A DNA stretch of 38,842 nucleotides from Thauera phenylacetica B4P. Lineage in GTDB: Bacteria > Pseudomonadota > Gammaproteobacteria > Burkholderiales > Rhodocyclaceae. The notes under the pieces were generated by a model. That model was not told where the DNA came from and did not search any database. It saw nothing but the letters and a program-made list of their open reading frames with translations. The stretch lies in NCBI RefSeq assembly GCF_000310225.1, contig NZ_AMXF01000017.1, forward strand, positions 1-38,842. Direction: 5' to 3'. Shown one piece after another: positions 6,026 to 24,710 of this stretch. The position numbers and the translations under genes are program-made. Position 1 is the stretch's first letter; every line of letters begins with the position of its first letter.

Positions 6026-6080
6026 AGTTTGGCACTTTGAGCCCAACGGGAAGCTGACCTCAAAATTACATTTCCGTCAG
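6026..6080 (-). promoter_or_regulatory. CopR-type operator A with promoter (drives the DUF411 gene)
   Basis: On the minus strand the 27-bp box (6080 to 6054) reads CTGAC-N5-TGTAAT-N6-GTCAG. A -10-like CAAACT lies at 6031-6026, exactly 22 bp past the box, the same spacing as in the other four sites. The box stands where a -35 would be, as expected for an activator such as CopR/CusR. The DUF411 ATG is 31 bp downstream of the -10. Confidence 0.75.
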
Positions 6081-6110
6081 ACAGCCGGGACCCCGGTCGA
6101 CTTTGCAGGA

Positions 6111-7514
6111 TCAGGAAGGCGATGAGGCTTCATTGCGAGGCAAGGTTATCGTGAAGCAGGTGACACCTTCAGCGGAGCGCGCAGTGATGTGACCCCCGTG
6201 GGCCTGGACGATGGAACGCGTGATCGCGAGTCCGAGCCCTGCGCCTTCACCGCGAGATTCGCGCTGGGCGCTACCGCGATGGAAGCGTTCGAAGATCCGT
6301 TCGATCTGATCGGCGGGTATCGGGTCGCCGACATTAGAGACGGCGAGACGGACGCCGGCTGCGTCCGCGTCAATCCTGATCGTGATCTGCCCCTCTTTCG
6401 GTGTGTGACGAAGCGCATTCGAGATCAGGTTCGACAGCGCGCGCCGCAGCATCAGGCGATCACCCTGAACGCTCGCTTGGCCCTGGCGCACGATGCGGAC
6501 CTGGCGCTCGTCGGCCAGCGCCTCGTAGAAGTCGATCAGTGCGTCTGCCTCGCGGGCCAGGTCGATCGCCTCGCCCGCGTGCGCGAGGGTGTTCTCGTCG
6601 GCCTTGGCGAGGAACAGCATGTCGCTGACCATGCGCGCGATGCGCTCGTATTCCTCGAGGTTCGAGGCCAGGATGTCCTGGTATTCGTCGAGCGTGCGCG
6701 GCCGCGACAGCGCGACCTGGGTCTGGGTCATCAGGTTCGAGATCGGCGTACGCAGTTCGTGGGCTATATCCGCCGAATAATCGCCGAGCCGCTGGAAAGC
6801 GGCTTCGAGCCGAGCGAGCATGCCATTGAAGGCTTCGACGTGGTCGCGCACTTCCAGCGGCGCATCATCGATGGCGAGACGCTGGCCGAGTTGCCTTGCC
6901 GACAGCCGACGGGCAGTTTCGGTGACCCGACGCAGGGGGGCGAGGCCCCGGTGCGCAGCAAACCAGCCGAATAGCGCCGCCGCCAAGGCAGCGACGAAGA
7001 CGCCCGCCCAAGTTGCATGACGTACCGACGCGAGGAAGTGGACGTGATGCGACAGATCCACTGCGACCAGCGCCTCGATCGTCTGCTCCTTCGCCCCAAG
7101 GCTCGGTAGCGCGATGCTGACCTCGAGCCCTCGATGGGGGCGCTCATCCACGGTCCAGTCGGTTAACGCGCGTGAAAGGGGTTCGCCTGCCCGCTGGGAG
7201 GCGGTGAAATGCTCGGGATGGATGATGTACAGGACGCGTCCCTCGACGTCGCGAACCAGGACACCGACACTTTCATGTCCAACGAAGGAGCGTTCGAGCG
7301 CCTCAATGCGTTCCGATCGCCCCCCAGTCGCATCAACACTTTGCAGCGCGTTGCGGATGAGCGTGACCTTGCCCTGCAACTCGTGCATGTCCAGCTCCTG
7401 GAAATGCATGTCCAACATGCGCCCAAAGAGCATCGCTGCCAGCACAAGCAGGCTCGCAGCGAGGACGGCAAATAGTGTTGCCAGTCTCGCCGTCAGCGAG
7501 TGAATGCGGATCAT
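6111..7514 (-). CDS. Heavy-metal sensor histidine kinase (CopS/CusS type)
   Basis: The 467-residue inner-membrane kinase has TM1 (about residues 10-30), a periplasmic sensor region (about 32-165) with several His and Met, TM2 (about 168-187), HAMP (about 188-240), and a HisKA domain with the phospho-acceptor in DIAHELRTPISN (H252). The HATPase_c domain shows NLISNALRHTPKEG (N box), VSNVGDPIP (G1) and GEGAGLGLAI (G2). It is predicted to sense periplasmic Cu(I)/Ag(I) and phosphorylate the response regulator encoded just upstream. The ATG at 7514 follows the regulator stop by two bases, so the genes are translationally coupled. Naming as CopS/CusS rests on family resemblance and context. Confidence 0.9.
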   Translation of the reverse strand: MIRIHSLTARLATLFAVLAASLLVLAAMLFGRMLDMHFQELDMHELQGKVTLIRNALQSVDATGGRSERIEALERSFVGHESVGVLVRDVEGRVLYIIHPEHFTASQRAGEPLSRALTDWTVDERPHRGLEVSIALPSLGAKEQTIEALVAVDLSHHVHFLASVRHATWAGVFVAALAAALFGWFAAHRGLAPLRRVTETARRLSARQLGQRLAIDDAPLEVRDHVEAFNGMLARLEAAFQRLGDYSADIAHELRTPISNLMTQTQVALSRPRTLDEYQDILASNLEEYERIARMVSDMLFLAKADENTLAHAGEAIDLAREADALIDFYEALADERQVRIVRQGQASVQGDRLMLRRALSNLISNALRHTPKEGQITIRIDADAAGVRLAVSNVGDPIPADQIERIFERFHRGSAQRESRGEGAGLGLAITRSIVQAHGGHITARSAEGVTCFTITLPRNEASSPS

Positions 7515-7516
7515 CG

Positions 7517-8197
7517 TCAGATCGGCTCCATCGCCTCAAGCACGTAGCCCATACCCCGCACGGTGTGGATCAGCTTCGGCTCAAAGGGGTCGTCGACCTT
7601 TACGCGCAACCTGCGTACGGCAACTTCGATCACGTTCGTGTCGCTGTCGAAGTTCATGTCCCACACCTGCGAAGCGATGAGTGAGCGGGGCAATACTTCA
7701 CCCTTGCGTCGCAGGAGCAGTTCAAGCAAGGCAAACTCCTTGGCGGTCAGATCGATGCGCTGCCCGCATCGGTTCACCCGGCGGCGAAGCAAATCGAGCT
7801 CCAGGTTCGCTGAGCGCAGGGTCTCCGGTTCGTGGTTTCTTCCCCTGCGCAGCAGCGTGCGAACGCGCGCGAGAAACTCGGAAAACGCGAAGGGCTTGAC
7901 CAGGTAATCGTCGGCGCCGAGCTCAAGACCACGGACCCGATCCTCAACTTGGTCACGGGCAGTCAGGAACAACACGGGGGTCTCACGACTGCTGCGACGC
8001 AGTGTTTGCAGGATGCCCCAGCCGTCCAGCCTTGGCAGCATCACGTCGAGCACGACCAGGTCGTAGTCACCGTTAAGGGCGAGGTGGAGCCCATCGAGGC
8101 CATCTCTTGCAAGGTCGACGACGAACCCGGCTTCGGTGAGCCCCTGGCGGAGGTAGTCGCCGGTCTTCACTTCGTCTTCGACGATCAGAATTTTCAT
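7517..8197 (-). CDS. copR: Heavy-metal response regulator (CopR/CusR type, OmpR family)
   Basis: The 226-residue regulator has a receiver domain (about 1-115, phospho-acceptor D51 in [13 protein letters not shown], switch Thr in FLTARD, Lys in VKPFAF). A winged-helix DNA-binding domain (about 127-222) includes [25 protein letters not shown] and [16 protein letters not shown]. The sequence fits the CopR/CusR/PcoR group. TAGGAG with a suitable spacer precedes ATG 8197. It is the first gene of the copRS operon and divergent from the Met-rich protein gene across operator B. It is the obvious candidate to bind the five repeated operators in the island; this is inference from family and site pattern. 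Confidence 0.92.
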
Positions 8198-8267
8198 TGT
8201 TTTGCTCCTACGCGCTTCGTGCGGCCTGTGACCGATTTTGCTCCCGGGGTGCTGGATAACGCCCGGG

Positions 8268-8322
8268 CTTACAGAAATGTAATTTCCGGGTCAGGCCGAC
8301 GACAGGCAAGCGGGCGCAAGAT
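8268..8322 (+). promoter_or_regulatory. CopR-type operator B with promoter (copRS / Met-rich operon intergenic region)
   Basis: The box at 8268-8294 reads CTTAC-N5-TGTAAT-N6-GTCAG, one mismatch from the consensus. It is followed after exactly 22 bp by a -10-like CAAGAT (8317-8322) directed at the gene starting 8384. It also lies 70 bp upstream of copR on the other strand, so it may autoregulate copRS; no matching -10 was identified in that direction. Confidence 0.75.
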
Positions 8323-8383
8323 GCTCTGCGTGGCACAGCGTTCCGTACCGCGACGGAACCCCGCAAACAATGGGAGATCGATC

Positions 8384-8833
8384 ATGAAACTGCGTTTGTA
8401 CCGTCTCGCCGGGCTCATGCCCGTCGTCGCTCTGGCTGCAGCCCTGCATGGCAGCCCGGTCGTCGCTCAGACGACCGATCCGGCGCAGGCCTGGCCGCCC
8501 GCAGCGAGTGTCCCCGCGCTTCAGGAACGTATGAAGTCGATCCGTGCCGAGACCAACCCGGAACGTCGCATGGCCCTGATGGAAGAGCAGGTCAAGGCCC
8601 TGGAGGCTGCATCGCAGGGCACCCCCGCTGGTTGCCCGATGATGGGGGGGCAGGTGGGGGCTGGTCCGATGATGAAGGGTAGTGGCCCTGGACCCGGGGC
8701 TGGACCCATGGGCGGCATGATGATGGATCCCAAGCTCATGCAGGAGCACATGAAGATGATGCAAGAGCACATGGGCATGATGCAGAACATGATGAAGATG
8801 CACCCGGCCGCCAAGCCGGCGATGCCCAACTGA
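8384..8833 (+). CDS. Met-rich exported protein, putative periplasmic copper binder
   Basis: The 149-residue product has a signal peptide (to about residue 28, VVAQ). A central helical segment (SVPALQERMKSIRAETNPERRMALMEEQVKALE) is followed by a Gly/Met-rich tail with repeated MMGG, MGGMMMDP, HMKMM and HMGMM motifs. Met and His clusters of this kind bind Cu(I)/Ag(I) in periplasmic proteins such as CopA/PcoE, but this is not a named family I can identify. It is the first gene after operator B, with GGGAG upstream of ATG 8384. It heads the operon with the 102-residue protein, efflux lipoprotein, multicopper oxidase and cupredoxin. Copper binding is inferred from composition and context. Confidence 0.75.
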   Translation: MKLRLYRLAGLMPVVALAAALHGSPVVAQTTDPAQAWPPAASVPALQERMKSIRAETNPERRMALMEEQVKALEAASQGTPAGCPMMGGQVGAGPMMKGSGPGPGAGPMGGMMMDPKLMQEHMKMMQEHMGMMQNMMKMHPAAKPAMPN

Positions 8834-8840
8834 GCATTGA

Positions 8841-8876
8841 GACGCGGAGCGGCGAGTTCGTCGGTCGCTCTGCGTC
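8841..8876 (+). other. Intergenic hairpin after the Met-rich protein gene
   Basis: GACGCGGAGCG (8841-8851) and CGCTCTGCGTC (8866-8876) form an 11-bp stem with one G-U pair and a 14-nt loop, just after the stop codon. No U-tract follows. It could reduce readthrough or protect the 5' part of the operon mRNA, giving more of the Met-rich protein than of downstream products. Confidence 0.4.
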
Positions 8877-8911
8877 CGGTTCAACACAAGACCAACAAAG
8901 AGACATTCCCC

Positions 8912-9220
8912 ATGCAGAGACGAATCATCCACCTCGGTGGAGGATTGGCCGTCGCCGTGGCGCTCGTGTCGGGCGCGCAGGCCGAGTCCTCCTCGCCATC
9001 AAGCCCCGCTGACCCCGCGCTCGGCGCGACCCAGACTGCCCCAGCGAGTGAGCAACCCAAGCCTCAGCCCCTTCCGGTCTATCGCTCGCCCCTGAACGAA
9101 TATCGGCCCTACCGTGTCGATGAGCCCCTGCGGTCGTGGAAGGATGCCAACGACGAGGCCAGACGCCTGGGCGGGCACATGGGCCACCTCGCGCCGTCGT
9201 CGAAAGGGGGCGAGCGATGA
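8912..9220 (+). CDS. Small exported protein of unknown function in the copper operon
   Basis: The 102-residue product has a signal peptide (MQRRIIHLGGGLAVAVALVS, cleavage near AQAES), then a Ser/Pro/Ala-rich low-complexity stretch. A conserved-looking segment (LPVYRSPLNEYRPYRVDEPLRSWKDANDEARRLGGHMGHLA) follows, ending with a short GGHMGH motif that could bind metal. I do not recognise a named family. The last codon overlaps the start of the efflux lipoprotein gene (ATGA at 9217-9220), so the two are translationally coupled. The function is probably tied to the efflux or copper-handling proteins of the operon. Confidence 0.72.
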   Translation: MQRRIIHLGGGLAVAVALVSGAQAESSSPSSPADPALGATQTAPASEQPKPQPLPVYRSPLNEYRPYRVDEPLRSWKDANDEARRLGGHMGHLAPSSKGGER

Positions 9221-10629
9221 GAGGCAGTCTCCCCATATCCTTGCTGGCTGCTACCGTGCTGACCGGGTGTGCCAGCGTTGCGATCGATGAGAACTTCGCC
9301 GAGGTTGAGCGCTTTGCGCGCGAGCAGACGGGCAGCGAGGTGCGCTGGCTGCGCTCGGACCCCGAGCGCGAGGCGATGCGCACCGAGGTCGATCGGCTGC
9401 TGGCCCAGCCGCTCGCAATTGACGACGCGGTGCGCATCGCGCTCGGCTACAGCCCGGCCTTCCAGTCCCTGCTGGCGGAAGCCGCCGTGGCCTCGGCGGA
9501 TGCGACCGGTTCCGCTCGCATCGGCAATCCGGTGTTCACCTTCGAGCGGTTGTTTCGCTCGGGCGCCGAGGGGCGCGAACTCGACATCGGCCGTTCGCTC
9601 GGCATCTCGCTGTTCGACCTGCTGTTCCTGCCTGCACGGCTGGAGCAGGCCGAGTTCCGCCAGCAGCAGACCCGGCTGCAGTCTTCGATTGCGCTGTTGA
9701 GCACCGTCACGGAGGTGCGCCAGGCCTGGGTCGATGCGGTCGCGGCGCGACAGGTCGCGCACTACCGGGAGGAAGTGGCCACGGCCGCTGGTACCGCTGC
9801 CGAACTCGCGCGTCGGATGCAGGCCACGGGCAACTTCAGCCGCCTGCAGCGCGCCCGCGAGCAGGCGCTGGCCGCCGAGGAGACGGCCAACCTGATCCGC
9901 GCCCGTCAGAACGCCACCGCCGCGCGCGAGGCGCTGATCCAGCGCTTGGGGCTGACCCCGAGCCAGGCGCAGGCGCTACGCCTACCGGATCAGTTGCCGG
10001 CCTTGCCCGAGGCGCCGATCGATGAAGCGACCGCCGGCGCGGCGCTGCTCGACAACCGGCTCGATGTGCGCATCGCCCGTACCGACCTCGAGCGTACGGC
10101 GAAGAGCCTGGGCCTCACGCAGGTGACCAGCGTGGTCAACGGCCTGCATGTGGCCGGCGTGCGCAACAGCGAGACCGGCGAGTCGTCGCAGCGCGGCTTC
10201 GAAGTCGAACTGCCGCTGCCCCTGTTCGACTTCGGCGATGCGGCCCGCGCCGGCAGTGAGGCCCGCTATCTCTCGGCCTTCAACCGCACCCTCGAGGTTG
10301 CCAATAACGCCAGCTCCCAGGTCCGCGTGGCCTACGAGGGCTACCGCAGTGCATACGACCTCGCGCGCCACTACCGCAGCGAGGTGGTTCCACTGCGTCA
10401 GAACATTACCGAAGAGTCGGTGCTCCAGTACAACGGGATGCTGATCGGTGTGTTCGAGCTGCTTGCCGCTGCCCGCGCTCAGTCGGCCAGCGTGGTGCAG
10501 GCGATCGAAGCCGAACGCGACTTCTGGCGCGCCGAGGCCGCGCTCAAGGCCAGCCTGCTCGGCCAGCCGATCGCACCGATCAGCCTTCAATCAAGCGCAT
10601 CGCCGGCAGAAGCCGGCGCTGGCCACTGA
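9217..10629 (+). CDS. TolC-family outer-membrane efflux lipoprotein
   Basis: The 470-residue product has a lipoprotein signal (lipobox VLTGC, Cys at about 17) followed by two outer-membrane efflux protein repeats (PF02321). The helical coiled-coil segments are about residues 60-250 and 275-460, with the FGDAARAGSEARYL and LQYNGMLIGVFELLAAAR regions typical of the second repeat. It would form a trimeric outer-membrane channel. The start overlaps the preceding stop codon. No inner-membrane pump or adaptor is encoded in this operon; the pump at 13.2-19.3 kb has its own outer-membrane component. It may therefore work with a pump elsewhere or in a copper-specific role with the adjacent oxidase. 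Confidence 0.85.
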   Translation: MRGSLPISLLAATVLTGCASVAIDENFAEVERFAREQTGSEVRWLRSDPEREAMRTEVDRLLAQPLAIDDAVRIALGYSPAFQSLLAEAAVASADATGSARIGNPVFTFERLFRSGAEGRELDIGRSLGISLFDLLFLPARLEQAEFRQQQTRLQSSIALLSTVTEVRQAWVDAVAARQVAHYREEVATAAGTAAELARRMQATGNFSRLQRAREQALAAEETANLIRARQNATAAREALIQRLGLTPSQAQALRLPDQLPALPEAPIDEATAGAALLDNRLDVRIARTDLERTAKSLGLTQVTSVVNGLHVAGVRNSETGESSQRGFEVELPLPLFDFGDAARAGSEARYLSAFNRTLEVANNASSQVRVAYEGYRSAYDLARHYRSEVVPLRQNITEESVLQYNGMLIGVFELLAAARAQSASVVQAIEAERDFWRAEAALKASLLGQPIAPISLQSSASPAEAGAGH

Positions 10630-10646
10630 CCTGTCCGGAGACGATC

Positions 10647-12050
10647 ATGACCACCCGACGCAGCTTTCTCGCCGGGGCAGGCCTGCTGGCCGCTGCCGGA
10701 ACCGTCAACCGCGCCGCGCTCGCTGCGCTGCCCGAGCCCGTAATTCAGACCAGCGCAGCCACGGCGGCCCCGCTGACCCCGCCCACAGGCCGCCCGTACG
10801 ACCCGGTCGTCACGCTCAACGGCTGGACGGCGCCCTGGCGCATGAACGCTGGGGTGAAGGAGTTCCACCTCGTCGCCGAACCCGTCGAGCGCGAGATCGC
10901 CCCCGGCATGGTGGCGCGGCTCTGGGGCTATAACGGCCAGTCGCCCGGGCCGACGATCGAGGTCGTCGAGGGCGACCGCGTGCGCATCTTCGTCACCAAC
11001 CGTCTGCCCGAGCACACCACCATCCACTGGCATGGCCAGCGCCTGCCCAACGGCATGGACGGGGTGGGCGGCCTCAACCAGCCGCAGATCCCGCCGGGCA
11101 AGACCTTCGTCTACGAATTCATCGCCCGCCGCCCCGGCACCTTCATGTACCACCCGCACGCCGACGAGATGGTGCAGATGGCGATGGGCATGATGGGCTT
11201 CTGGGTCACGCACCCGCGCGAACCACATCCGCACATCGCGCGCGTGGATCGCGACTTTTGCTTCCTGCTCAACGCCTACGACATCGAGCCGGGCAGCTAC
11301 GTGCCCAAGATCAACACCATGCTCGAGTTCAACCTGTGGACCTGGAACAGCCGCGCCTTCCCCGGCATCGATTCGCTCAACGTCAGGAAGGGCGACCGCG
11401 TGCGGGTGCGCATCGGCAACCTGACCATGACCAACCACCCGATCCACATCCACGGCCACGAATTCCAGGTGACCGGCACCGACGGCGGCCCGACGCGCCC
11501 CGAGTCGCGCTGGCCCGAGGTCACCACCGACGTGGCCGTCGGTCAGATGCGCCAGATCGAGTTCATCGCCGACGAGGAGGGCGACTGGGCGATGCACTGC
11601 CACAAGTCGCACCACACGATGAACGCGATGGGGCACGACGTGCCGACCATGATCGGCGTCGATCATCGCGGCCTGGTCGAGGACATCCAGAAGCTGGTGC
11701 CCGACTACATGCTGATGGGCGAGCGCGGCATGGCCGACATGGGCGAGATGGAGATGCCGCTGCCCGACAACACGCTGCCGATGATGACCGGCCAGGGCCC
11801 GTTCGGCGCGGTGGAGATGGGCGGCATGTTCACCGTGCTCAAGGTGCGCCGCGAGCAGAAGCCGGGCGACTACCGCGACCCGGGCTGGTTCAGGCATCCC
11901 AAGGGGACGGTGGCCTACGAGTGGGCGGGCGCAGCGCTGCCTGAACCCGCTCGCGGCGACGCGGCGGGCGCCTCGAGCATGCCGCGTACAGCGGGCGGAC
12001 CGCCTGTCGAGATGGCCGTACGCAAACCCACTCGCCATCAAGGTCATTGA
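10647..12050 (+). CDS. Tat-exported multicopper oxidase (CopA/CueO-type)
   Basis: The 467-residue product begins with a Tat signal (TTRRSFLAG). All four copper-ligand motifs are visible: HWHGQ (H127, H129), HPHAD (H169, H171), HPIHIHGH (H264, H267, H269) and HCHKSHHTMNAMGH (near 317-330, with type-1 Cys and His). A Met-rich stretch near 360-395 (GMADMGEMEMP, LPMMTG) may bind Cu(I). It is expected to oxidise periplasmic Cu(I) to Cu(II) with oxygen. It is shorter than PcoA/CopA of about 600 residues. CCGGAG precedes ATG 10647, 17 bp after the efflux gene. Activity is inferred from intact ligands. Confidence 0.92.
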   Translation: MTTRRSFLAGAGLLAAAGTVNRAALAALPEPVIQTSAATAAPLTPPTGRPYDPVVTLNGWTAPWRMNAGVKEFHLVAEPVEREIAPGMVARLWGYNGQSPGPTIEVVEGDRVRIFVTNRLPEHTTIHWHGQRLPNGMDGVGGLNQPQIPPGKTFVYEFIARRPGTFMYHPHADEMVQMAMGMMGFWVTHPREPHPHIARVDRDFCFLLNAYDIEPGSYVPKINTMLEFNLWTWNSRAFPGIDSLNVRKGDRVRVRIGNLTMTNHPIHIHGHEFQVTGTDGGPTRPESRWPEVTTDVAVGQMRQIEFIADEEGDWAMHCHKSHHTMNAMGHDVPTMIGVDHRGLVEDIQKLVPDYMLMGERGMADMGEMEMPLPDNTLPMMTGQGPFGAVEMGGMFTVLKVRREQKPGDYRDPGWFRHPKGTVAYEWAGAALPEPARGDAAGASSMPRTAGGPPVEMAVRKPTRHQGH

Positions 12051-12123
12051 GGTCGAACGCCGTGCAATCGGCGCAAACCCCGGCACAAATGAAGCCTCAC
12101 CCAACAGAGAGATGGAGATCCCC

Positions 12124-12624
12124 ATGAAAAGTCGTCGTCGATTTCTGGCCACCAGCCTTGCCGCCGGTGTGCTTGCCGTTCACCGCAGCACGTTCGCCCA
12201 TGGCAATGCCGAACATGCCGACAAAGCAGCGTCCGATACCCCCAAGGAGCAGCAGCAATGGGGGATTGCGGGGGACGCGAAAGCCGTCTCGCGCGCGATC
12301 GCCATCGTGATGACCGATGAGATGCGCTTCGTTCCGGACCGCATCGAGGTGCGTCTGGGCGAGACGATCCGATTCACCCACGAAAATCGAGGCGCGGTGA
12401 TGCACGAGATGGTGGTCGGTACGCCCAAGACGCTTGCCGAGCACGCGGAGATGATGCAGCGCTTCCCGGAGATGGAACATGACGAACCGTGGATGTCGCA
12501 TGTCGCGCCAGGTGGGCGCGGAGAAATGATCTGGCACTTCAACCGTGCGGGGGACTTCCAGTTCGCCTGCCTGATTCCCGGCCACTTCCAGGCCGGCATG
12601 ATCGGCACGATCAAGGTCGGCTGA
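12124..12624 (+). CDS. Tat-exported cupredoxin
   Basis: The 166-residue product has a Tat signal (SRRRFLATS) and one cupredoxin domain (about 55-166). Type-1 copper ligands appear intact: H94 (VMHEM), C149, H154 and M159 in FACLIPGHFQAGM. The domain resembles the plastocyanin-like copper-resistance proteins found beside multicopper oxidases. It could accept or donate electrons to the oxidase or carry copper. The ATG at 12112 lies inside the better RBS GGAG (12114-12117), so ATG 12124 is chosen. It is the last gene of the operon; its stop codon lies inside operator C. Confidence 0.88.
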   Translation: MKSRRRFLATSLAAGVLAVHRSTFAHGNAEHADKAASDTPKEQQQWGIAGDAKAVSRAIAIVMTDEMRFVPDRIEVRLGETIRFTHENRGAVMHEMVVGTPKTLAEHAEMMQRFPEMEHDEPWMSHVAPGGRGEMIWHFNRAGDFQFACLIPGHFQAGMIGTIKVG

Positions 12625-12675
12625 CAGAAATGTAATCCGTGCGTCAGCGTCCCGTTGGTGAGCGCTTCGCATAAT
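12621..12675 (+). promoter_or_regulatory. CopR-type operator C with promoter (drives cusF-cusCBA)
   Basis: The box at 12621-12647 reads CTGAC-N5-TGTAAT-N6-GTCAG and is the best match of the five. It is followed after 22 bp by CATAAT (12670-12675), a good -10. The box overlaps the stop codon of the cupredoxin gene and sits where a -35 would be. The cusF-like ATG is 51 bp past the -10. Confidence 0.8.
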
Positions 12676-12726
12676 CGTGCTCACTCTCGAACTCACACAG
12701 AATTTGAACCCTTGGAGAAGCCCATC

Positions 12727-13074
12727 ATGAAAAAGACCCTCATCACCACTGCGCTCCTGGCCTTGCTCGGCGGCGGCGCCCCGCTTGCGTTCGCACAGGC
12801 CGATCACGATGCACATCACGGCGGGGCGAGTGCCCCGGCCGAAGCCAACGCCAAGCTGGCCGAGGGCACGGTCAAGAAGATCGACAAGTCGGCTGGCAAG
12901 CTGACCATTGCCCATGGCCCCCTGGAGTCGCTCGGCATGCCGGCGATGACCATGGTGTTCCGCGCGGCCGAGCCGGGCATGCTTGATCAGGTCAAGGCGG
13001 GCGACAAGATCCGGTTCGCGGTCGAGAAGGTCGGCGGTGCGCTGACCGTGACGTCTCTCGAGCCCGCCCAGTGA
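12727..13074 (+). CDS. CusF-like periplasmic copper chaperone
   Basis: The 115-residue product has a signal peptide (about 1-23, AFAQ), a His-rich stretch (ADHDAHHGG), and a CusF/CopZ-like OB-fold domain (PF11604, about 45-112). The metal motif is HGPLESLGMPAMTMVF. His and the two Met of AMTM match CusF H36/M47/M49, but the Trp of CusF (WPAMTM) is Met here. CusF delivers Cu(I)/Ag(I) to the CusCBA pump. Its place as first gene under operator C, directly before the pump genes, supports that role. GGAG precedes ATG 12727. Confidence 0.87.
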   Translation: MKKTLITTALLALLGGGAPLAFAQADHDAHHGGASAPAEANAKLAEGTVKKIDKSAGKLTIAHGPLESLGMPAMTMVFRAAEPGMLDQVKAGDKIRFAVEKVGGALTVTSLEPAQ

Positions 13075-13114
13075 CGCCTATCCCGCAGGTGCGTCGCGTT
13101 CCACTCTGACCGGC

Positions 13115-13139
13115 CAGCCGTGGGGATGCCCCACTGAGT
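13115..13139 (+). other. Hairpin between the cusF-like and TolC-family genes
   Basis: GTGGGG (13120-13125) and CCCCAC (13129-13134) form a tight stem-loop with an ATG loop; CAGCC and GGCTG outside can extend it imperfectly. It may lower expression of the pump genes relative to the chaperone or separate the two. No U-tract follows. Confidence 0.35.
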
Positions 13140-13208
13140 GGCTGAACGACGAGGCGGGTGGCGAAGGGCCTGCGCATGCACTTCACCGCCTGCCGGAATC
13201 GTTTCTCG

Positions 13209-16069: not shown

Positions 16070-16070
16070 G

Positions 16071-19000
16071 ATGCATGCCCCTGTGACAGACTCTTCGAAC
16101 GTCGTGCCAACCGACGCGGCAGCCAGACCGGCAGCACCCGGCCTGCTCGACCGCGTCATCGACTGGTCGGCGCGCAACGTCTTCCTGGTACTGCTGGCCA
16201 CGCTGTTCCTGATCGGGGGTGGCGTGTATGCGGTCAAGCACACGCCGCTCGACGCGCTGCCCGACCTGTCCGACGTGCAGGTGATCGTCTACACCGACTA
16301 CCCCGGGCAGGCGCCGCAGGTGGTCGAGGACCAGGTCACCTATCCGCTCACCACCTCGATGCTGGCGGTGCCGCGCGCGAAGGTGGTGCGCGGCTTCTCG
16401 ATGTTCGGCGCGTCCTATGTGTACGTGATCTTCGAGGACGGCACCGACATCTACTGGGCACGTTCGCGCGTGCTCGAGTACCTGAGCACCGCCGCCAGCC
16501 GCCTGCCGCAGGGCGTGGCGCCGCAGATCGGGCCGGACGCGACCGGCGTGGGCTGGGTCTATCAATACGCGGTGCTGGGCAAGGACATGAGCCTCGCCGA
16601 CACCCGCAGCCTGCAGGACTGGTACGTGCGCTACCAGCTCACCAAGGCGCAGGGCGTGTCCGAGGTGGCGAGCCTGGGCGGCTTCGTGCGCGAGTACCAG
16701 GTCACCGTCGATCCGCTGCGCCTCGCCGGCTACGGCATCACGCTCGACCAGGTCACGCAGGCGATCCGCGCCTCCAACCGCGACGTCGGCGGCCGGGTGG
16801 TGGAGCTCGCCGAGAAGGAATACATGGTGCGCGGCCGGGGTTACCTGCAAAGCGTGCAGGACATCGCCGACATCGTGCTCAAGGCCGAGCGCGGCACGCC
16901 GGTGCGCGTAGGCGACGTGGCCCGCGTCGAGCTGGTGCCGGCCGAGCGGCGCGGCATTGCCGAGCTGAACGGCGAGGGCGAGGTGGCCTCGGGCATCGTG
17001 ATGGCGCGCTTCGGCCAGAACGCACTCGACGTGATCGCCAACGTCAAGGCCAAGATCGCCGAGATCACGCCCGGCCTGCCGGCAGGCGCCGAGATCGTGC
17101 CGGTGTACGACCGCTCCGAACTGATCGAGCGCGCGATCGGCAACCTGAAATGGACGCTGCTCGAGGAGAGCCTGATCGTCGCCGCGGTGTGCGTGATCTT
17201 CCTGCTCCATGTGAGGAGCGCGCTGGTGGCCATCATCACGCTGCCGCTCGGCATCCTGTTCGCCTTCATCGCCATGGGCTCGCTCGGCCTGGGCTCGAAC
17301 ATCATGAGCCTGGGCGGCATCGCGATCGCGATCGGGGCGATGGTCGATGCCGCGATCGTGATGATCGAGAACGCGCACAAGCACATCGAGCGGCTGCCCG
17401 CAGGGGCGGACCAGAAGGCGCGCGGCGCCGCGATCGTGCTCGCGTGCAAGGAGGTCGGGCCGGCGCTGTTCTTCTCGCTGCTGATCATCACCGTGTCCTT
17501 CCTGCCGGTGTTCGCACTCGAAGGCCAGGAGGGCCGGCTGTTCTCGCCGCTCGCCTTCACCAAGACCTTCGCCATGGCCGGCGCCGCGCTGCTGTCGGTG
17601 ACCCTGGTGCCGGTGCTGATGCTGTTCTTCGTGCGCGGGCGCATCCTGCCCGAGGCGAAGAACCCGGTGAACCGGCTGCTGATCTGGCTCTACCGGCCGA
17701 TCATCCAGGGCGTGCTGCGCTTCAAGCTGGTGACGCTGCTGCTCGCGGTGCTGGCGATGGCCGCCACCATCGTACCGGCGCGCCAGATCGGCTCGGAGTT
17801 CATGCCGACGCTCAACGAAGGCACGCTGTTCTACATGCCGGCGGCGCTGCCGGGCATGTCGGTGACCGAGGCCGGGCGCCTGCTCGCGACCACCAACCGC
17901 ATCATCAAGACCTTCCCCGAGGTGGCGTCGGTCTATGGCAAGGCCGGCCGCGCCAACACCGCGACCGACCCGGCGCCGCTCGAGATGTTCGAGACCGTCA
18001 TCAACCTCAAGCCCCAGGACCAGTGGCGCCCGGGCATGACCACCGACAAGCTCATTGCCGAGATGGACGCCGCGCTCAAGTTCCCCGGCCTCGCCAACTC
18101 GTGGACGATGCCGATCAAGGCGCGCATCGACATGCTCAGCACCGGCATTCGCACCCCGGTGGGGGTCAAGGTGTTCGGCAAGGACCTGGAGACGCTGGAG
18201 AAGGTGGCGCAGGCGGTGGAAGCTGCCGTGCGCAAGGTACCCGGCGCGAGCAGCGCCTACGCCGAGCGCGTGGCGGGCGGCTACTACGTGGACATCGTGC
18301 CGCGCCGCGACCAGCTCGCGCGCTACGGACTCACCATCGACATGCTGCAGGACGTGATCGCCACCGCGCTCGGCGGCGAGATGGTGACGACCACGGTCGA
18401 GGGCCTGGAGCGCTACGGCGTGTCGGTGCGCTACGCGCGCGGCCTGCGCGACGACCCGGTGCGGCTCGCCTCCGACGTCTTCGTGCCGACCATGAACGGC
18501 CCGATCCCGCTCGGCCAGGTGGCCGAGGTGAAGCTGACGCGCGGCGCGCCCGCCATCCGCACCGAGAACGCGCTGCTGGCGGCCTATGTGTATGTCGACA
18601 CGCGCGAAGCCGACCTCGGCGCCTTCGTCAAACGCGCGCAGCAGGCGGTGGCCGAGGAAGTCGAGTTCCCGCAGGGCTACTACGCCACTTGGAGCGGCCA
18701 GTTCGAGAACATGGAGCGCGCCAAGGAGAAGATGAAGATCGTGGTGCCGGTGACGCTGGCGCTCATCTTCGTGCTGCTCTACCTGAACTTCCGGCGCCTG
18801 ACCGAGACCCTGATCGTGATGCTGTCGGTGCCCTTCGCGCTGGTCGGCGGGGTGTGGCTGATGTGGTGGCTGGGCTACCAGATGAGCGTGGCGGTGGCGG
18901 TGGGCTTCATCGCCTTGGCAGGGGTGGCGGCGGAGACGGGCGTGATCATGCTGATCTACCTCGACCACGCCTGGCGCGAGGTGCAGGTGCGCTGCCAGGG

Positions 19001-19310
19001 TGAAGGCCGCGAGGCCGGCGTCGCCGATCTGTACGAGGCGATCATGGAAGGCGCAGTCGAGCGTGTGCGCCCGAAGATGATGACCGTGGTCGCGATCATG
19101 GCCGGCCTGTTGCCGATCATGTGGAGCACCGGTACCGGCGCCGAGGTCATGAGCCGCATCGCCGCGCCGATGGTCGGCGGCATGGTGTCCTCGACGGTGC
19201 TGACGTTGGCGGTGATTCCAGCGCTGTATGCGCTGGTCAAGCAGTGGGAGTTGCGCCGCAGCGCCAAGACAGCACCCGCGCAGGCGCTGGTCACGGTGTC
19301 GAATTTGTAA
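16071..19310 (+). CDS. cusA: CusA-like RND heavy-metal efflux pump
   Basis: The 1079-residue inner-membrane transporter belongs to the HME-RND group (Cu(I)/Ag(I) type). The sequence shows TM1 after an N-terminal cytoplasmic segment, then HTPLDALPDLSDVQVIVYTDYPGQAPQVVEDQVTYP, the family hallmark. TM4 carries GGIAIAIGAMVDAAIVMIEN with acidic residues for proton relay. Two large periplasmic loops and an ordinary C-terminal TM bundle complete it. It would take Cu(I) from the periplasm through the CusB adaptor to the CusC channel, driven by the proton gradient. The start ATG 16071 directly follows the adaptor stop codon. Operator E overlaps the 3' end of this gene. Metal preference is inferred from family and context. 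Confidence 0.93.
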   Translation: MHAPVTDSSNVVPTDAAARPAAPGLLDRVIDWSARNVFLVLLATLFLIGGGVYAVKHTPLDALPDLSDVQVIVYTDYPGQAPQVVEDQVTYPLTTSMLAVPRAKVVRGFSMFGASYVYVIFEDGTDIYWARSRVLEYLSTAASRLPQGVAPQIGPDATGVGWVYQYAVLGKDMSLADTRSLQDWYVRYQLTKAQGVSEVASLGGFVREYQVTVDPLRLAGYGITLDQVTQAIRASNRDVGGRVVELAEKEYMVRGRGYLQSVQDIADIVLKAERGTPVRVGDVARVELVPAERRGIAELNGEGEVASGIVMARFGQNALDVIANVKAKIAEITPGLPAGAEIVPVYDRSELIERAIGNLKWTLLEESLIVAAVCVIFLLHVRSALVAIITLPLGILFAFIAMGSLGLGSNIMSLGGIAIAIGAMVDAAIVMIENAHKHIERLPAGADQKARGAAIVLACKEVGPALFFSLLIITVSFLPVFALEGQEGRLFSPLAFTKTFAMAGAALLSVTLVPVLMLFFVRGRILPEAKNPVNRLLIWLYRPIIQGVLRFKLVTLLLAVLAMAATIVPARQIGSEFMPTLNEGTLFYMPAALPGMSVTEAGRLLATTNRIIKTFPEVASVYGKAGRANTATDPAPLEMFETVINLKPQDQWRPGMTTDKLIAEMDAALKFPGLANSWTMPIKARIDMLSTGIRTPVGVKVFGKDLETLEKVAQAVEAAVRKVPGASSAYAERVAGGYYVDIVPRRDQLARYGLTIDMLQDVIATALGGEMVTTTVEGLERYGVSVRYARGLRDDPVRLASDVFVPTMNGPIPLGQVAEVKLTRGAPAIRTENALLAAYVYVDTREADLGAFVKRAQQAVAEEVEFPQGYYATWSGQFENMERAKEKMKIVVPVTLALIFVLLYLNFRRLTETLIVMLSVPFALVGGVWLMWWLGYQMSVAVAVGFIALAGVAAETGVIMLIYLDHAWREVQVRCQGEGREAGVADLYEAIMEGAVERVRPKMMTVVAIMAGLLPIMWSTGTGAEVMSRIAAPMVGGMVSSTVLTLAVIPALYALVKQWELRRSAKTAPAQALVTVSNL

Positions 19311-19350
19311 TGCACCGGTCAGCGGCGCGACAGCATCGGGGGCGTAGCCT
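19296..19350 (+). promoter_or_regulatory. CopR-type operator E with promoter (overlaps the end of cusA)
   Basis: The box at 19296-19322 matches the right half well (TGTAAT at box positions 11-16, GTCAG at 23-27) and the left half less well (GTGTC). A -10-like TAGCCT (19345-19350) follows after exactly 22 bp. The box spans the cusA stop codon (19308-19310). It would start a separate transcript for the 47-residue gene, DUF2933 protein, cytochrome and ATPase. It is the weakest of the five by left-half match, but the spacing supports it. Confidence 0.65.
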
Positions 19351-19404
19351 GTTTCCAAGGCCCCGTTCCCGAGGCTGCCGCTGAACGTGACGAGGAGCAG
19401 TGCG

Positions 19405-19548
19405 ATGCTTGCGTGGCTGAAATCCCTCTGGCAATCCTTCAGGAATTGGTGTCGCGAGAACGAGCGAGCCCACCGGGATGCCCCGCTCTCGCCGTGCTGC
19501 TCGAAGCCGCCCGCAGCCGTTCGCCATTCGCCGACCCGCAAGGTATGA
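19405..19548 (+). CDS. 47-residue Cys-Cys microprotein, unknown function
   Basis: A short open frame from ATG 19405 to TGA 19546-19548 encodes 47 residues: an N-terminal amphipathic, Trp-rich segment (MLAWLKSLWQSFRNWC) and a C-terminal basic tail with a Cys-Cys pair (SPCCSKPP). A strong GAGGAG (19392-19397) sits seven bases before the ATG. The frame is the first after operator E, and its stop precedes the DUF2933 ATG by four bases. I know of no named family. The three Cys residues and the position suggest a membrane-associated metal-binding role, but that is inference. Confidence 0.55.
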   Translation: MLAWLKSLWQSFRNWCRENERAHRDAPLSPCCSKPPAAVRHSPTRKV

Positions 19549-19552
19549 AGCC

Positions 19553-19801
19553 ATGAACACAAAGCCTGCTCATGATCCTGGACTCCCTCGATCTGTCGCC
19601 TGGTATCGCTCCCCCGGCGTCATCGCCGGCCTGATGCTGGCGGCGATCGCACTGTTCTTCCTGTTGCGCGAACACTGGGCGCATGTGTCGGGCAACTGGG
19701 TGTATCTGATCCTGTTGCTGTGTCCCCTGATGCACCTGTTTGGCCATGGAGGACATCACGGCGGGCACCGCAGCAACGACACCGATTCGGAGAAGCGCTG
19801 A
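19553..19801 (+). CDS. DUF2933 membrane protein (first copy)
   Basis: The 82-residue product carries the DUF2933 pattern: two membrane segments (about 22-38 and 50-62), a REHWAHVSGNWVY connection, CPLMHLFGHGG at the C-terminal side, and a His/Gly-rich tail (HGGHHGGH). DUF2933 genes are common in copper and heavy-metal clusters but have no established function. The CPLMH and His-rich residues could bind metal. A second copy is at 22692. It is in an operon with the microprotein upstream and the cytochrome one base downstream. Confidence 0.8.
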   Translation: MNTKPAHDPGLPRSVAWYRSPGVIAGLMLAAIALFFLLREHWAHVSGNWVYLILLLCPLMHLFGHGGHHGGHRSNDTDSEKR

Positions 19802-19802
19802 G

Positions 19803-20201
19803 ATGTCGATGACAGGGGCGTGCCTTGGCCGTGGCGTCGTCATCGCGGCGCTTTCGGGCGTCTTGATTTCGAGCGCAGCGGCGCAAGGCTGGAAGATCCC
19901 GCAGCCCTCTCCGGGGCTGATGCCCAATCCGGCGCAAGGAAAGGGACTCTACGCACAGCACTGTGCCGCTTGCCATGGGACCGACCTCAAGGGCTCGGAC
20001 AAGGGGCCGCCCATGCTCCATAAGGTCTACGAACCCAGTCATCACGCCGATATCGCCTTTCAGTTGGCGGTAGCGAACGGTGTGCGCGCCCACCACTGGC
20101 AGTTCGGCGACATGGCACCTGTTCCCGGCCTGACGTCGGACGAGGTCGCTCATGTCACGGCATTCATCCGTGGTGAACAGCGCAAGGTCGGCATTCGATA
20201 A
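19803..20201 (+). CDS. Periplasmic c-type cytochrome
   Basis: The 132-residue product has a signal peptide (about 1-27, SSAAAQ) and one cytochrome c domain. The heme-binding CAACH is at residues 54-58, with a likely axial Met at FGDMAP (M104). The domain begins GKGLYAQHCAACHGTDLKGSDKGPPML, as in small soluble cytochromes c. It may carry electrons between periplasmic copper or oxidase proteins and the respiratory chain; the partner is not shown. ATG 19803 follows the DUF2933 stop by one base; ATG 19809 is an alternative. It sits directly before the ATPase gene. Confidence 0.85.
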   Translation: MSMTGACLGRGVVIAALSGVLISSAAAQGWKIPQPSPGLMPNPAQGKGLYAQHCAACHGTDLKGSDKGPPMLHKVYEPSHHADIAFQLAVANGVRAHHWQFGDMAPVPGLTSDEVAHVTAFIRGEQRKVGIR

Positions 20202-20225
20202 CAACAAACGCCGGGGAGAAGCATC

Positions 20226-22574
<2,349 letters not shown>

Positions 22575-22691
22575 TCGACCTCAATCCGCCCGCACGGAAA
22601 GCTGGGCAGACGAACTGCGTGACGGGTACTTCGTTCGTTGGGAGGCATGCCGGCGTCAGCGTGTCGATGTTTGCGCACAAGGAGCTGTCTC

Positions 22692-22946
22692 ATGAAAGCC
22701 GAGACTGAAGCCGAGCCCCGTCCATCCGGTCGGGCTGAATCGAACTTAAGGGTTCGCCGCGTATTTCTGGTCTTCGTCGTACTGGCGGCCGTTCTCCTTA
22801 TCGCCGAGCACCGGCTCCATGTGCTCGGCTACCTACCGTGGCTCATCTTGCTTGCGTGCCCCCTGATGCACGTCTTCATGCATCGCGGTCACGGCCACAA
22901 GAGAAAACGAACGCCGGCTGAAGACCAAGGTAACCATGATGCGTGA
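22692..22946 (+). CDS. DUF2933 membrane protein (second copy)
   Basis: The 84-residue product resembles the protein at 19553: two membrane segments, the REHW-like AEHRLHVLGYLPWLI, then CPLMHVFMHRGHGHKRKR. A charged N-terminal tail precedes the first segment. GGAG (22681-22684) lies seven bases upstream of ATG 22692. It follows the ATPase gene by 117 bp and precedes the ICMT-like gene. A duplicate within one island suggests the two proteins have related but separate partners. Confidence 0.78.
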   Translation: MKAETEAEPRPSGRAESNLRVRRVFLVFVVLAAVLLIAEHRLHVLGYLPWLILLACPLMHVFMHRGHGHKRKRTPAEDQGNHDA

Positions 22947-22963
22947 TGCCACGGGAGATCGAG

Positions 22964-23593
22964 ATGAGTGAGACGTCGAGTTACGGCTTGTGGTCACTGG
23001 TTATCATCAACTCGCTGTTCTTCATCGCCTTCGCATTCAGCTTCACGCGTCCCCGCACAAGCCAGGACTGGCGATCCTTGGGCGCTTACTCGGCCTTCAT
23101 CCTCGCGCTCTTCACCGAGATGTACGGCTTTCCGTTGACGATCTACCTGCTCTCGGGGTGGCTGTCTTCGAAATTTCCGGGAATCGATTTTTTTGCCCAC
23201 GACTCGGGGCACCTCTTGGAGGTGATGTTCGGATGGAGCAGTAACCCGCACTTCGGCCCGTTTCACCTCTTGAGCACGGTGTTCATCGTCGGTGGCTTCT
23301 GGCTCTTGGCAAAGGCCTGGCCCGTACTCCTCGAGGCTCAGCGCACCCGCCGCGTCGCCGACAGTGGCCCGTACGCACGCATTCGACACCCGCAATACGT
23401 CGCTTTCGTTCTGGTCATGTTCGGCTTTTTGCTGCAATGGCCGACCTTGATCACGCTGATCATGTTCCCGGTTCTGTTGATCGTGTACGCCAGGCTCGCC
23501 CGCCGGGAAGAACTCGATGCGATCGAGGCATTCGGTGATGCCTATCGCTCATACCGCGACCGCACGCCGGCGTTCATTCCTCGCCTGCGGTAG
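22964..23593 (+). CDS. ICMT-like membrane methyltransferase
   Basis: The 209-residue integral membrane protein has about five hydrophobic segments and the isoprenylcysteine carboxylmethyltransferase-family signature GPYARIRHPQYVAFVL, with a following RREELDAIEAFGDAYRSY. These residues bind S-adenosylmethionine in ICMT relatives. The substrate here is unknown; bacteria lack prenylated-Cys proteins of the eukaryotic type. Homologues often neighbour heavy-metal efflux genes. The start ATG 22964 has GGGAG six bases ahead; an in-frame GTG 22943 would overlap the preceding gene and lacks an RBS. It is the last plus-strand gene of the island. Confidence 0.75.
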   Translation: MSETSSYGLWSLVIINSLFFIAFAFSFTRPRTSQDWRSLGAYSAFILALFTEMYGFPLTIYLLSGWLSSKFPGIDFFAHDSGHLLEVMFGWSSNPHFGPFHLLSTVFIVGGFWLLAKAWPVLLEAQRTRRVADSGPYARIRHPQYVAFVLVMFGFLLQWPTLITLIMFPVLLIVYARLARREELDAIEAFGDAYRSYRDRTPAFIPRLR

Positions 23594-23723
23594 TTCGACG
23601 GATCGTTTGGTCCAGAGCGCCGCTTGCGAAGTAGAGGGAGATGCCGACGCGCAGATTCCTCATTGCCTGCAAGCAAGGCGCCTTTGAGTTTGGGGCACCA
23701 TGCATGCGCGCGGGGCAGAGTGA

Positions 23724-23739
23724 GTTTGATCAATCAAAC
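23724..23739. repeat. 16-bp palindrome GTTTGAT-CA-ATCAAAC
   Basis: GTTTGAT (23724-23730) and ATCAAAC (23733-23739) are exact inverted repeats separated by CA, in the gap between the convergent ICMT and copK genes. It could be a weak hairpin terminator or a protein site. No supported gene lies around it (23594-23816). Confidence 0.3.
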
Positions 23740-23765
23740 CCGCCGATCCTGAAAAAGGTCGACAG

Positions 23766-23793
23766 AAAAGCCCCCGGGATCGACACCGAGGGC
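23766..23793 (-). terminator. Rho-independent terminator of the czcE-copK unit
   Basis: On the minus strand GCCCTCGG and CCGGGGGC pair over 8 bp with one G-U pair and an 8-nt loop (arms at 23786-23793 and 23770-23777), followed by UUUU (23769-23766). It lies 23 bp after the copK stop codon, where a terminator is expected. Confidence 0.65.
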
Positions 23794-23816
23794 AAGTTCA
23801 TCCTGAAACGTGCGAA

Positions 23817-24095
23817 TCAGTTACGGGTGTCGTGGCGAAGGATGCTGTCGAGACGCATGACCTCGTCGCCGTGCATCATGATCTTCTGTCCATCCTTGGT
23901 CTCCATCACTTCGCCGTGTTTCATCCTCACCGCACGGCCCATCTTGTCCTCCATGCCCATTTTCCCATCCTTGAAGATGTAGACCGTCGAGCCATCCTTC
24001 ATGGGGATGGACTTTTCGACCCGCTCGACATCGACCGCGAAGGCCGATGTGGTGGCAATCCCAAGTGCCGCGACCATCAGTGCTTTCTTCAACAT
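23817..24095 (-). CDS. copK: CopK-like periplasmic copper-binding protein
   Basis: The 92-residue product has a signal peptide (residues 1-20, SAFA cleavage) and a mature domain of about 72 residues. It closely follows CopK of Cupriavidus metallidurans: start VDVERVEK, then the IFKDGKMGMEDK, VMETKDGQKIMM and EVMRLDSILR segments. Several Met residues known as Cu(I) ligands in CopK have equivalents here. CopK binds Cu(I) and Cu(II) cooperatively in the periplasm. AAGGAG precedes ATG 24095. It lies 112 bp downstream of the czcE-like gene on the same strand and is probably co-transcribed from operator D. Family identity is by remembered sequence pattern; a database check would confirm it. Confidence 0.85.
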   Translation of the reverse strand: MLKKALMVAALGIATTSAFAVDVERVEKSIPMKDGSTVYIFKDGKMGMEDKMGRAVRMKHGEVMETKDGQKIMMHGDEVMRLDSILRHDTRN

Positions 24096-24207
24096 GCTCG
24101 TCTCCTTGAATCAACTACAAATAGTTGCTGAACATTGCATCAGGCCTCTTCCATAGAAGATTGCCCGATGCCTTACCCGCCTTGGTTCCTGGGGAAGCTT
24201 GGTGCTA

Positions 24208-24603
24208 TCAGGAGCCGCTGCGGTAAAGGGGGCTTTCTTCGAGATAGACAGTCACCTTGTCGCCCCCTTGGACCACCTTCGAAAGCGGAAAGCTGTTTGT
24301 GCCGAGGGTGTCGAAGGTCCAGTTGACCGTCTTGTCACCGACCTTCAGGGCAACCGTCTCGAGCCGCGTGACGTTGATGTAGCGCGTGTCCGCATTGACG
24401 ATCACGGTGCGGGAGGGCGTGGCGTTGCTCGCGTAGCCATATGTGGCCAGCTCTCGCTCAGTCGGGCTCGAAGCGCGTGCCTGGACATGCTCGAGCCAGT
24501 GCAGCGCACCGCCCTCGGAATAGTCTTCGTGTGCGAACGCAGCGGAAGATCCAAGGGTGCTGATGGCCGAGACGGCGAGAACGGCGATGATCGACTTTTT
24601 CAT
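24208..24603 (-). CDS. CzcE-like periplasmic metal-binding protein
   Basis: The 131-residue product has a signal peptide (to about residue 24, AAFA). The mature protein resembles CzcE of C. metallidurans, which binds Cu(II): YGYASNATPSRTVIVNADTRYINVTRLETVALKVGDKTVNWTFDTLG and the C-terminal VTVYLEESPLYRSG. The His residues in AHEDYSEGGALHWLEH may add to metal binding. GGAGCCC precedes ATG 24603. It is the first gene after operator D, followed by copK. In its namesake it sits in a czc cluster; here it is paired with copper genes only. Confidence 0.82.
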   Translation of the reverse strand: MKKSIIAVLAVSAISTLGSSAAFAHEDYSEGGALHWLEHVQARASSPTERELATYGYASNATPSRTVIVNADTRYINVTRLETVALKVGDKTVNWTFDTLGTNSFPLSKVVQGGDKVTVYLEESPLYRSGS

Positions 24604-24655
24604 GATGGGCTCCTTGTCCAGATTGGCTGCTCATGCTTGAGCAACCATGGACTCG

Positions 24656-24710
24656 ATCATAGGAGCCAGCGACTGACAGGGCAGTGACCCTGCAATTACG
24701 TTTAAGTCAT
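24656..24710 (-). promoter_or_regulatory. CopR-type operator D with promoter (drives czcE-copK)
   Basis: On the minus strand the box (24710 to 24684) reads ATGAC-N5-CGTAAT-N6-GTCAC, with two changed outer bases and C in place of T at box position 11. After exactly 22 bp comes TATGAT (24661-24656), one mismatch from TATAAT. The -10 is 52 bp before the czcE-like ATG at 24603. Confidence 0.72.

Follow-up and report, generated by a model that had tools for sequence, protein, structure and literature searches.

Putative CopR-type promoters of a copper island in Thauera phenylacetica B4P combine a four-part operator with a fixed spacing to the -10 hexamer

In this study, we have analysed the promoters of a copper island in Thauera phenylacetica B4P, which lies in a 38,842-nucleotide stretch (contig NZ_AMXF01000017.1; hereafter the window) and in which five copies of a 27-bp box, apparently operators of the CopR type, are each followed by a -10-like hexamer. 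The coordinates and letters that a first-pass annotation had given for these five boxes proved correct when the window was re-read, and the genes downstream of them include copper genes. On the minus strand, the DUF411 gene of the island (5551-5994, ATG at 5994) is preceded by the box CTGACG-GAAA-TGTAAT-TTTGA-GGTCAG (6054-6080), a further element that we call the fourth half-site, GTTGG (6043-6047), and the hexamer CAAACT (6026-6031), with a predicted start at about 6019. To the right lie the genes of a copS-type sensor kinase (6111-7514, minus; TIGR01386) and a copR-type response regulator (7517-8197, minus; TIGR01387), and then the box CTTACA-GAAA-TGTAAT-TTCCG-GGTCAG (8268-8294, plus), which is apparently common to copRS on its left and a copper operon on its right; the copper-operon promoter has the fourth half-site GACAG (8301-8305, plus), the hexamer CAAGAT (8317-8322, plus) and a predicted start at about 8329, ahead of a first open reading frame with its ATG at 8384. 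The box CTGACA-GAAA-TGTAAT-CCGTG-CGTCAG (12621-12647, plus) stands ahead of cusF-cusCBA, with GTTGG (12654-12658, plus), CATAAT (12670-12675, plus), a predicted start at about 12682 and the cusF ATG at 12727. The box GTGTCG-AATT-TGTAAT-GCACC-GGTCAG (19296-19322, plus), whose upstream half-site is degenerate, overlaps the 3' end of cusA and is followed by GACAG (19329-19333, plus) and TAGCCT (19345-19350, plus), with a predicted start at about 19357, ahead of DUF2933, cytochrome c and copper P-type ATPase genes. Finally, the box ATGACT-TAAA-CGTAAT-TGCAG-GGTCAC (24684-24710, minus) precedes a CzcE-like gene (ATG at 24603), with GTCAG (24673-24677, minus), TATGAT (24656-24661, minus) and a predicted start at about 24649. 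The fourth half-site was placed by alignment at all five promoters; it is kept in relatives at the first three and is backed by a whole-unit score at the last two.

Measured against the pattern CTGAC-N5-TGTAAT-N6-GTCAG, the boxes at 6054 and 12621 show no mismatch, and those at 8268, 19296 and 24684 show one, two and three, respectively; the window has two exact matches to the pattern, whereas 100 shuffles gave 0.00 on average. At all five boxes the hexamer starts 23 bases past the end of the box (offset 23), as the first-pass annotation had it. A sixth box was found on contig C332 (1553-1579), outside the window, flanked by the genes of a second CopR-type regulator (minus) and of a CusF-like protein (plus), and it has GATACT at the same offset 23; this site was retrieved with the core or box pattern only, the spacing being left unused, and its gene neighbours were assigned by eye. 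For the six sites taken together, the -10 score averages +5.8 at offset 23 and is negative at every other offset from 1 to 60. When the downstream 70 bases were randomized, the score of the best common offset was equalled in none of 20,000 letter shuffles and in none of 20,000 cyclic shifts. Positions 2 and 6 are A and T, respectively, in all six hexamers.

Alignment of the six sites yields the unit CTGACA-N4-TGTAAT-N6-GTCAG-N6-GWYRG-N11-[C/T]AnnnT, in which TGTAAT, GTCAG and GWYRG share one orientation and follow each other in 11-bp steps, with an 11-bp gap then leading to the hexamer. The inverted core WTKACA-N4-TGTAAT is imperfect but recognisable in five of the six sites (four in the window and that on C332), and the promoter-proximal in-phase repeat GTCAG/GTCAC is present in all of them. 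Thus, the claim that every window box contains the CopR core holds for four boxes and fails for 19296, where no upstream half-site is recognisable (GTGTCG). The fourth element, a GWYRG block that the earlier annotation did not mention, reads GTTGG, GACAG, GTTGG, GACAG, GTCAG and GTCGG; the two window sites with the most box mismatches, 19296 and 24684, carry GACAG and GTCAG. The box as originally delimited, from CTGAC to GTCAG, therefore stands as one part of a conserved unit that goes on to this fourth half-site-like block 11 bp later. GTCAG had been read as the mirror of CTGAC, but a direct repeat of TGTAAT fits better, because GTCAG is in 11-bp phase with TGTAAT, a third repeat comes next, and at 19296 GTCAG occurs without CTGAC; on these grounds the plain mirror CTGAC...GTCAG was rejected. 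At the -35 place the consensus, read by eye, is not TTGACA-like. A rigid distance to the -10 together with the lack of a -35 consensus is what a class II sigma-70 activator promoter would be expected to show. In PhoB boxes, direct half-sites repeat every 11 bp and end about 10-11 bp before the -10; half-sites that recur every 11 bp up to 11 bp before the -10 would likewise suit a PhoB-box-like tandem operator.

Scanning the whole 5.02-Mb genome with the box pattern at up to three mismatches returned nine places (three for the reversed control), namely the five window boxes, that on C332 and three others (C58, C28 and C57). The first-pass annotation had named a random scatter of boxes over the genome as the outcome that would speak against it; with the extended pattern at up to one mismatch, which was drawn up after these sites had been seen, the genome contains six matches, of which five are those of the window and the sixth lies next to another copR, and the control has none. 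On a loose whole-unit score, built from the window sites among others, each of the five window sites reaches 19 or 20 out of 20 and no other place in the window exceeds 15; in 20 shuffled windows there was one match at 17 or more. CopR-type regulators are encoded near these sites: copRS in the window (6111-8197) and a second response regulator beside the C332 site. The CopR-like nature of the local regulator, as previously assigned, is borne out by TIGR01387 (cztR/silR/copR family; 359.8 bits against a cut-off of 279.2).

The unit was then sought with the core alone, TKACR-N4-TGTAAT (15-bp core), in 28 genomes of the same genus, and the flanks of all matches were taken. There are 141 matches, against 6 for the reversed control, and among the 122 unique sites GTCA lies exactly at +6 after TGTAAT in 69, while every other offset is used at most twice. 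In these 69 sites, G at offset 7, A/T at offset 8 and C/T at offset 9 are invariant (69/69 each), and G at offset 11 and.A...T at offset 23 are found in 61 each, the count of.A...T exceeding 15 at no other offset. Reduction to 18 sites less than 50% alike in their linkers leaves the hexamer in 15 of 18 (best other offset, 2) and the fourth half-site with G34 in 18/18, Y36 in 18/18 and G38 in 13/18. As a separate observation, a core look-alike, TGACGCGGCTGTAAT, occurs in up to four copies per genome in G005, G008, G012, G022 and G024; the copies seen lack GTCA at +6, and it is probably a repeated coding element.

The anatomy and its spacing are conserved over divergent promoters in other species too. 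Searching a collection of genome contigs with CTKACA-N4-TGTAAT-N6-GTCAG gave at least 120 stretches, the matches listed coming mostly from Pseudomonas, also from Thauera, Aromatoleum, Duganella, Cupriavidus and others, and in a few cases from unrelated phyla, apparently by chance. Eighty of these stretches provide 78 unique sites, with.A...T at offset 23 in 66 (other offsets, 29 at most) and TA...T at offset 23 in 51 (other offsets, 4 at most); after the box, G7 is found in 72, C9 in 65, A10 in 61 and G11 in 69. Among 113 unique other-species sites from 120 of the at least 120 loci, 98 have the hexamer at offset 23. When the listed sites are reduced to 36 by the same linker rule, 25 keep the hexamer (best other offset, 7), and G34, Y36 and G38 occur in 29, 32 and 26. 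The genes behind these promoters are linked to copper: for 32 downstream proteins, hand-chosen from 80 loci, copper families are the most frequent (Cupredoxin_1, 17; CusF, 6; DUF411, 3; CzcE, 3). One P. putida genome (strain 31753) has 20 box matches at up to three mismatches, against 7 for the reversed control, with [C/T]A...T at offset 23 in 11 of them (9/14 on the plus strand and 2/6 on the minus strand). The full pattern without mismatch is matched 15 times in 299 Pseudomonadota genomes, our own included (14 in the same class; control, 3), and most of the phylum is therefore without the strict form. In pMOL30 of Cupriavidus metallidurans CH34, the copA side has TACTCT at offset 23 and the copR side TAGACT at offset 17; the loose whole-unit scan over 45 kb of this plasmid did not pick out the copA site and marked a single place, which has TAAGCT at offset 23 and lies within or close to two genes, one of the CzcE family and one hypothetical. 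A translated search of plasmids gave mainly enterobacterial pco/sil records, and these were left out of the comparison. These comparisons support the proposal of the first-pass annotation, that the window holds CopR-type operators of a single copper regulon at a fixed distance from the -10, as far as sequence can speak to it. Two further features of the other-species sites may be recorded: a C-C/A-C/A-A block 33-36 bases past the box, at the expected place of the start, is partly conserved in L021-L100 (mostly Pseudomonas) and may be the CGCACA-like motif that the authors of a KT2440 study placed near the -10; and five sites of one family of the class (L326, L327, L328, L331 and L332) show TGTAAT-N6-GTCAC with the same -10 spacing and GATAG/GCTAG/GATAA/GTTAT as fourth block, being possibly CzcR-type operators of the same geometry.

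The copRS genes (8197-6111, minus) have no box in their own direction, contrary to the initial claim that each transcription unit begins with its own, and appear to rely on the reverse reading of the 8268 box. In this direction the hexamer CAAAAT (8235-8240, minus) stands at offset 17 of the box, ahead of the copR ATG at 8197, with a predicted copR start at about 8228. The same arrangement recurs elsewhere: a -10-like hexamer is found at offset 16 or 17 in 18 of 20 genus sites with a regulator start codon downstream, the best -10 of the copR side lies at offset 16-17 in 9 of 11 reduced genus sites and at 16-18 in 27 of 31 reduced other-species sites, and a response-regulator start codon is found within 130 bases on the far side of 87 of the 117 listed other-species boxes with enough sequence. 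Since copR-side hexamers lie at 16-18 and effector-side hexamers at 23, one palindrome appears to serve two promoters of unequal geometry. In its DNA-binding half, the window CopR is identical to the C332 regulator at 87 of 98 residues, to pMOL30 CopR at 74, and to the P. putida proteins of L192 and L194 at 74 and 78; a 15-residue stretch, which we take to be the recognition-helix region, is nearly unchanged in the window, C332, pMOL30 and P. putida CopR-type proteins. The solved relatives of CopR by sequence include the PcoR DNA-binding domain 2jzy.

The island itself differs in composition from its surroundings. Third-position G+C is mostly about 0.73-0.87 in the copper-island genes (3655-28665), with the multicopper oxidase at 0.91 and cusA at 0.94, and reaches 0.94-0.95 in the flanking genes at 213-2945 and mostly more than 0.9 beyond 29130. 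Five genomes of the genus carry three cores at nearly the same spacing, twice in G026, and this recurrence, together with the low third-position G+C, suggests that the island was acquired by horizontal transfer. In addition, the cytochrome c and copper P-type ATPase genes have a DUF2933 small protein on either side (19478-19801 and 22638-22946), and a tRNA-Gly gene (gcc; 33883-33975, minus) lies about 5 kb beyond the island.

All together, we consider it likely that these are CopR-dependent class II promoters without a sigma-70 -35 element, with a four-part effector side and a core-only copR side. In the model that we propose, CopS would sense periplasmic copper and activate CopR, as their families suggest, and one CopR dimer would sit on the inverted core CTGACA-N4-TGTAAT. 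Two further CopR subunits would then bind head-to-tail on the in-phase GTCAG and GWYRG, in a PhoB/PmrA-like manner, filling the -35 place up to 11 bp before the -10 and holding RNA polymerase, presumably with sigma-70, on the weak [C/T]AnnnT hexamer. The copR gene would be fired by the palindrome read the other way, without extra half-sites and from a -10 about 5-7 bp nearer, and the two sides would be of unequal strength. More tentatively, and as a possibility rather than a probability, the whole may represent a compound operator of the CopR type, in which a symmetric dimer site is fused to a PhoB-like tandem dimer site and the palindrome drives both a rigid effector promoter with four half-sites and a looser regulator promoter with two.

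Part of this proposal can be set against data from P. putida KT2440, published in 2025 (PMC12428095); this and the other papers compared below are used here from extracts. The cop footprints reported there are 27 to 47 bp long and contain several TGACA-like motifs; counted from the codon, they cover -89 to -43 at copA1 (47 bp) and -96 to -58 at copR2 (39 bp), and transcription starts lie 23 bp (copR2), 20 bp (copA1), 13 bp (copR1) and 27 bp (copA2) before it. Our own sites were counted on strain 31753, not on KT2440, and there the four half-sites span -87 to -50 at L143, set against copA1, and about -101 to -64 at L192, which the copper genes around it mark as the probable counterpart of copR2. 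A 38-bp operator is compatible with the footprints of both copA1 and copR2, and for copR2 the start predicted on strain 31753 lies 24 bp before the codon, next to the published 23. A number of observations, in these data and in ours, nevertheless weigh against the model. The published copA1 start, at 20 bp, falls 6 nucleotides later than the 26 predicted on strain 31753; the copR1 and copA2 starts lie about 100 bases or more past their own footprints, which does not suit the geometry; neither of these two footprints has a matching site among those found here, and for L194, a possible copR1 counterpart, the prediction is about -101 to -65 where -144 to -110 was published. In the extract consulted, the KT2440 authors found no typical -10 or -35 and suggested unidentified sigma factors or mechanisms. 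Closer to hand, only two of the six genome-site hexamers agree with TATAAT at five of six bases, and three, all in the window, agree at only three; at 19296 the upstream half-site is unclear and only the proximal half is present. Within the genus, 53 of the 122 core matches lack GTCA, many of them being backward readings of the same palindrome, and 8 of the 69 GTCA sites lack the hexamer at 23, five of these with the same box CTGACAGGAATGTAAT. Offset 35 reaches 42/113 in the other-species sites before reduction, and at pMOL30 copA-copR the two proximal half-sites amount only to GTAAG and GTAGC. Among more distant relatives (30 of many loci listed, L161-L190), only 6 of 36 readable core matches have GTCA at +6, with the hexamer at 23 in 4 of the 6; because so few of these cores had GTCA, the main count was made in the same-genus set.

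Other explanations of the conserved spacing have to be considered. The classical box with one direct repeat may suffice, as in the arrangement of the C. metallidurans regulator AgrR, which has one extra repeat up and/or downstream (PMC7380067), leaving GWYRG as a DNA-shape or polymerase-contact element. GWYRG does resemble TGTAAT less than GTCAG does, and only 13 of the 18 reduced genus sites retain its last G. We regard this explanation as rather doubtful, as the block is in exact 11-bp phase with the two preceding half-sites and has G34 and Y36 in 18/18 of those sites; the KT2440 copA1 footprint (PMC12428095) extends past its place, as counted on strain 31753, and in other species (80 of the at least 120 stretches) the fourth block is mostly GnCAG, nearly the letters of GTCAG. 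It is very improbable that an alternative sigma factor, for instance an extracytoplasmic-function one, reads these promoters. The spacers obtained with GTCAG or GWYRG as the -35 element, 22 or 11 bases, are unsuitable, the usual spacer being 16-18 bases, and this candidate was rejected; moreover, the bases that the hexamer keeps, A at the second and T at the sixth position, are a trait of the sigma-70 -10. What speaks for such a factor is the KT2440 report (PMC12428095), whose authors found no typical boxes for the major sigma factors and suggested unidentified sigma factors or mechanisms.

The shared spacing might also reflect nothing but common descent, a few promoter copies having been duplicated with the island without selection. 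Several relatives carry near-identical islands, so that identical promoter copies say little, and some linker positions are partly conserved before reduction; once the sites are reduced to those less than 50% alike in their linkers, however, the half-sites and the hexamer stay and most linker positions carry little information, and in the P. putida genome [C/T]AnnnT stands at 23 in 11 of 20 boxes (up to three mismatches), which are located at different places. Descent alone is thus hardly credible. The weaker sites at 19296 and 24684 could belong to another metal regulator of the family, such as a CzcR-like protein: CzcR binds GAAACn6GTAAT and has targets in common with CopR and CusR in Pseudomonas (PMC11195947), and the gene at 24684 is CzcE-like. 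Both sites, on the other hand, keep the geometry of GTCAG/GTCAC, GWYRG and hexamer and lie within the copper island beside the local copRS, and we find this assignment unlikely.

If the proposal of CopR-dependent class II promoters is true, a short binding consensus would become a fuller promoter grammar, which tells the genes that CopR activates, the direction and the approximate start base; if the more tentative compound operator is real, CopR promoters and their starts could be read from genome sequence in many gamma- and betaproteobacteria. A concrete -10 is offered for copper promoters where the 2025 P. putida study (PMC12428095, as excerpted) saw none, and the question of unidentified sigma factors therefore becomes testable by point changes. 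Regulator and effector could be set unequally by a single palindrome, and in the compound operator this built-in unequal geometry would give autoregulation and the defence genes different copper thresholds.

A cop box has reportedly also been described in P. syringae, by Mills in 1994. A MerR-type (CueR) promoter was rejected, as the palindrome lies upstream of the -35 place and not inside a 19-20 bp spacer between -35 and -10. In the case of AgrR (PMC7380067, 2020), the core is ATKACANNNNTGTMAT, a 6-4-6 inverted ATTACA-N4-TGTAAT, joined at some operators by a direct repeat in phase with it, on either flank or on both; activation is largely affected when the promoter-proximal repeat is mutated, the inverted core is also needed, and AgrR has been proposed to be a type II activator of promoters with a reasonably good -10 and no or a poor -35. 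The core, one in-phase direct repeat and class II activation were thus already known. A single footprint covers copA2-copR2; counted from the two starts it spans -74 to -40 and -60 to -26, respectively, and by arithmetic the starts are then 100 bp apart; the geometry described here gives 101 (positions 62 and -39). The AgrR box therefore resembles the present one in its inverted core, proximal in-phase repeat, type II activation, poor -35 and common copA2-copR2 footprint. It differs in that no fourth half-site or fixed spacing rule was found in the extract of that paper, and in that the core of the agrR promoter is centred at -43.5, whereas here, counted from predicted starts, the centre falls at about -53.5 for the effector promoter and about -47 for that of copR. 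More generally, the open-licence literature searched, part of which was available as extracts, yielded neither the fourth half-site nor the rigid 33-base spacing from core to hexamer nor the 23/17 asymmetry.

In Pseudomonas, CopR, CusR and CzcR act at one site, and a CopR consensus CTGACAn5GTAAT is cited for P. aeruginosa (PMC11195947). The Pseudomonas CopR box shares with ours the core, the regulator family and the copper genes; its consensus covers the core only, whereas here the core makes up the distal third of a promoter unit of 55 bp. PhoB and PmrA, in turn, bind head-to-tail half-sites at the -35 element, where PhoB touches sigma region 4 (PMC4660055, likewise in extract). Head-to-tail half-sites at the -35 place are what the present promoters have in common with them; here, in contrast, the tandem pair is joined to an inverted pair, which appears to drive the opposite promoter too.

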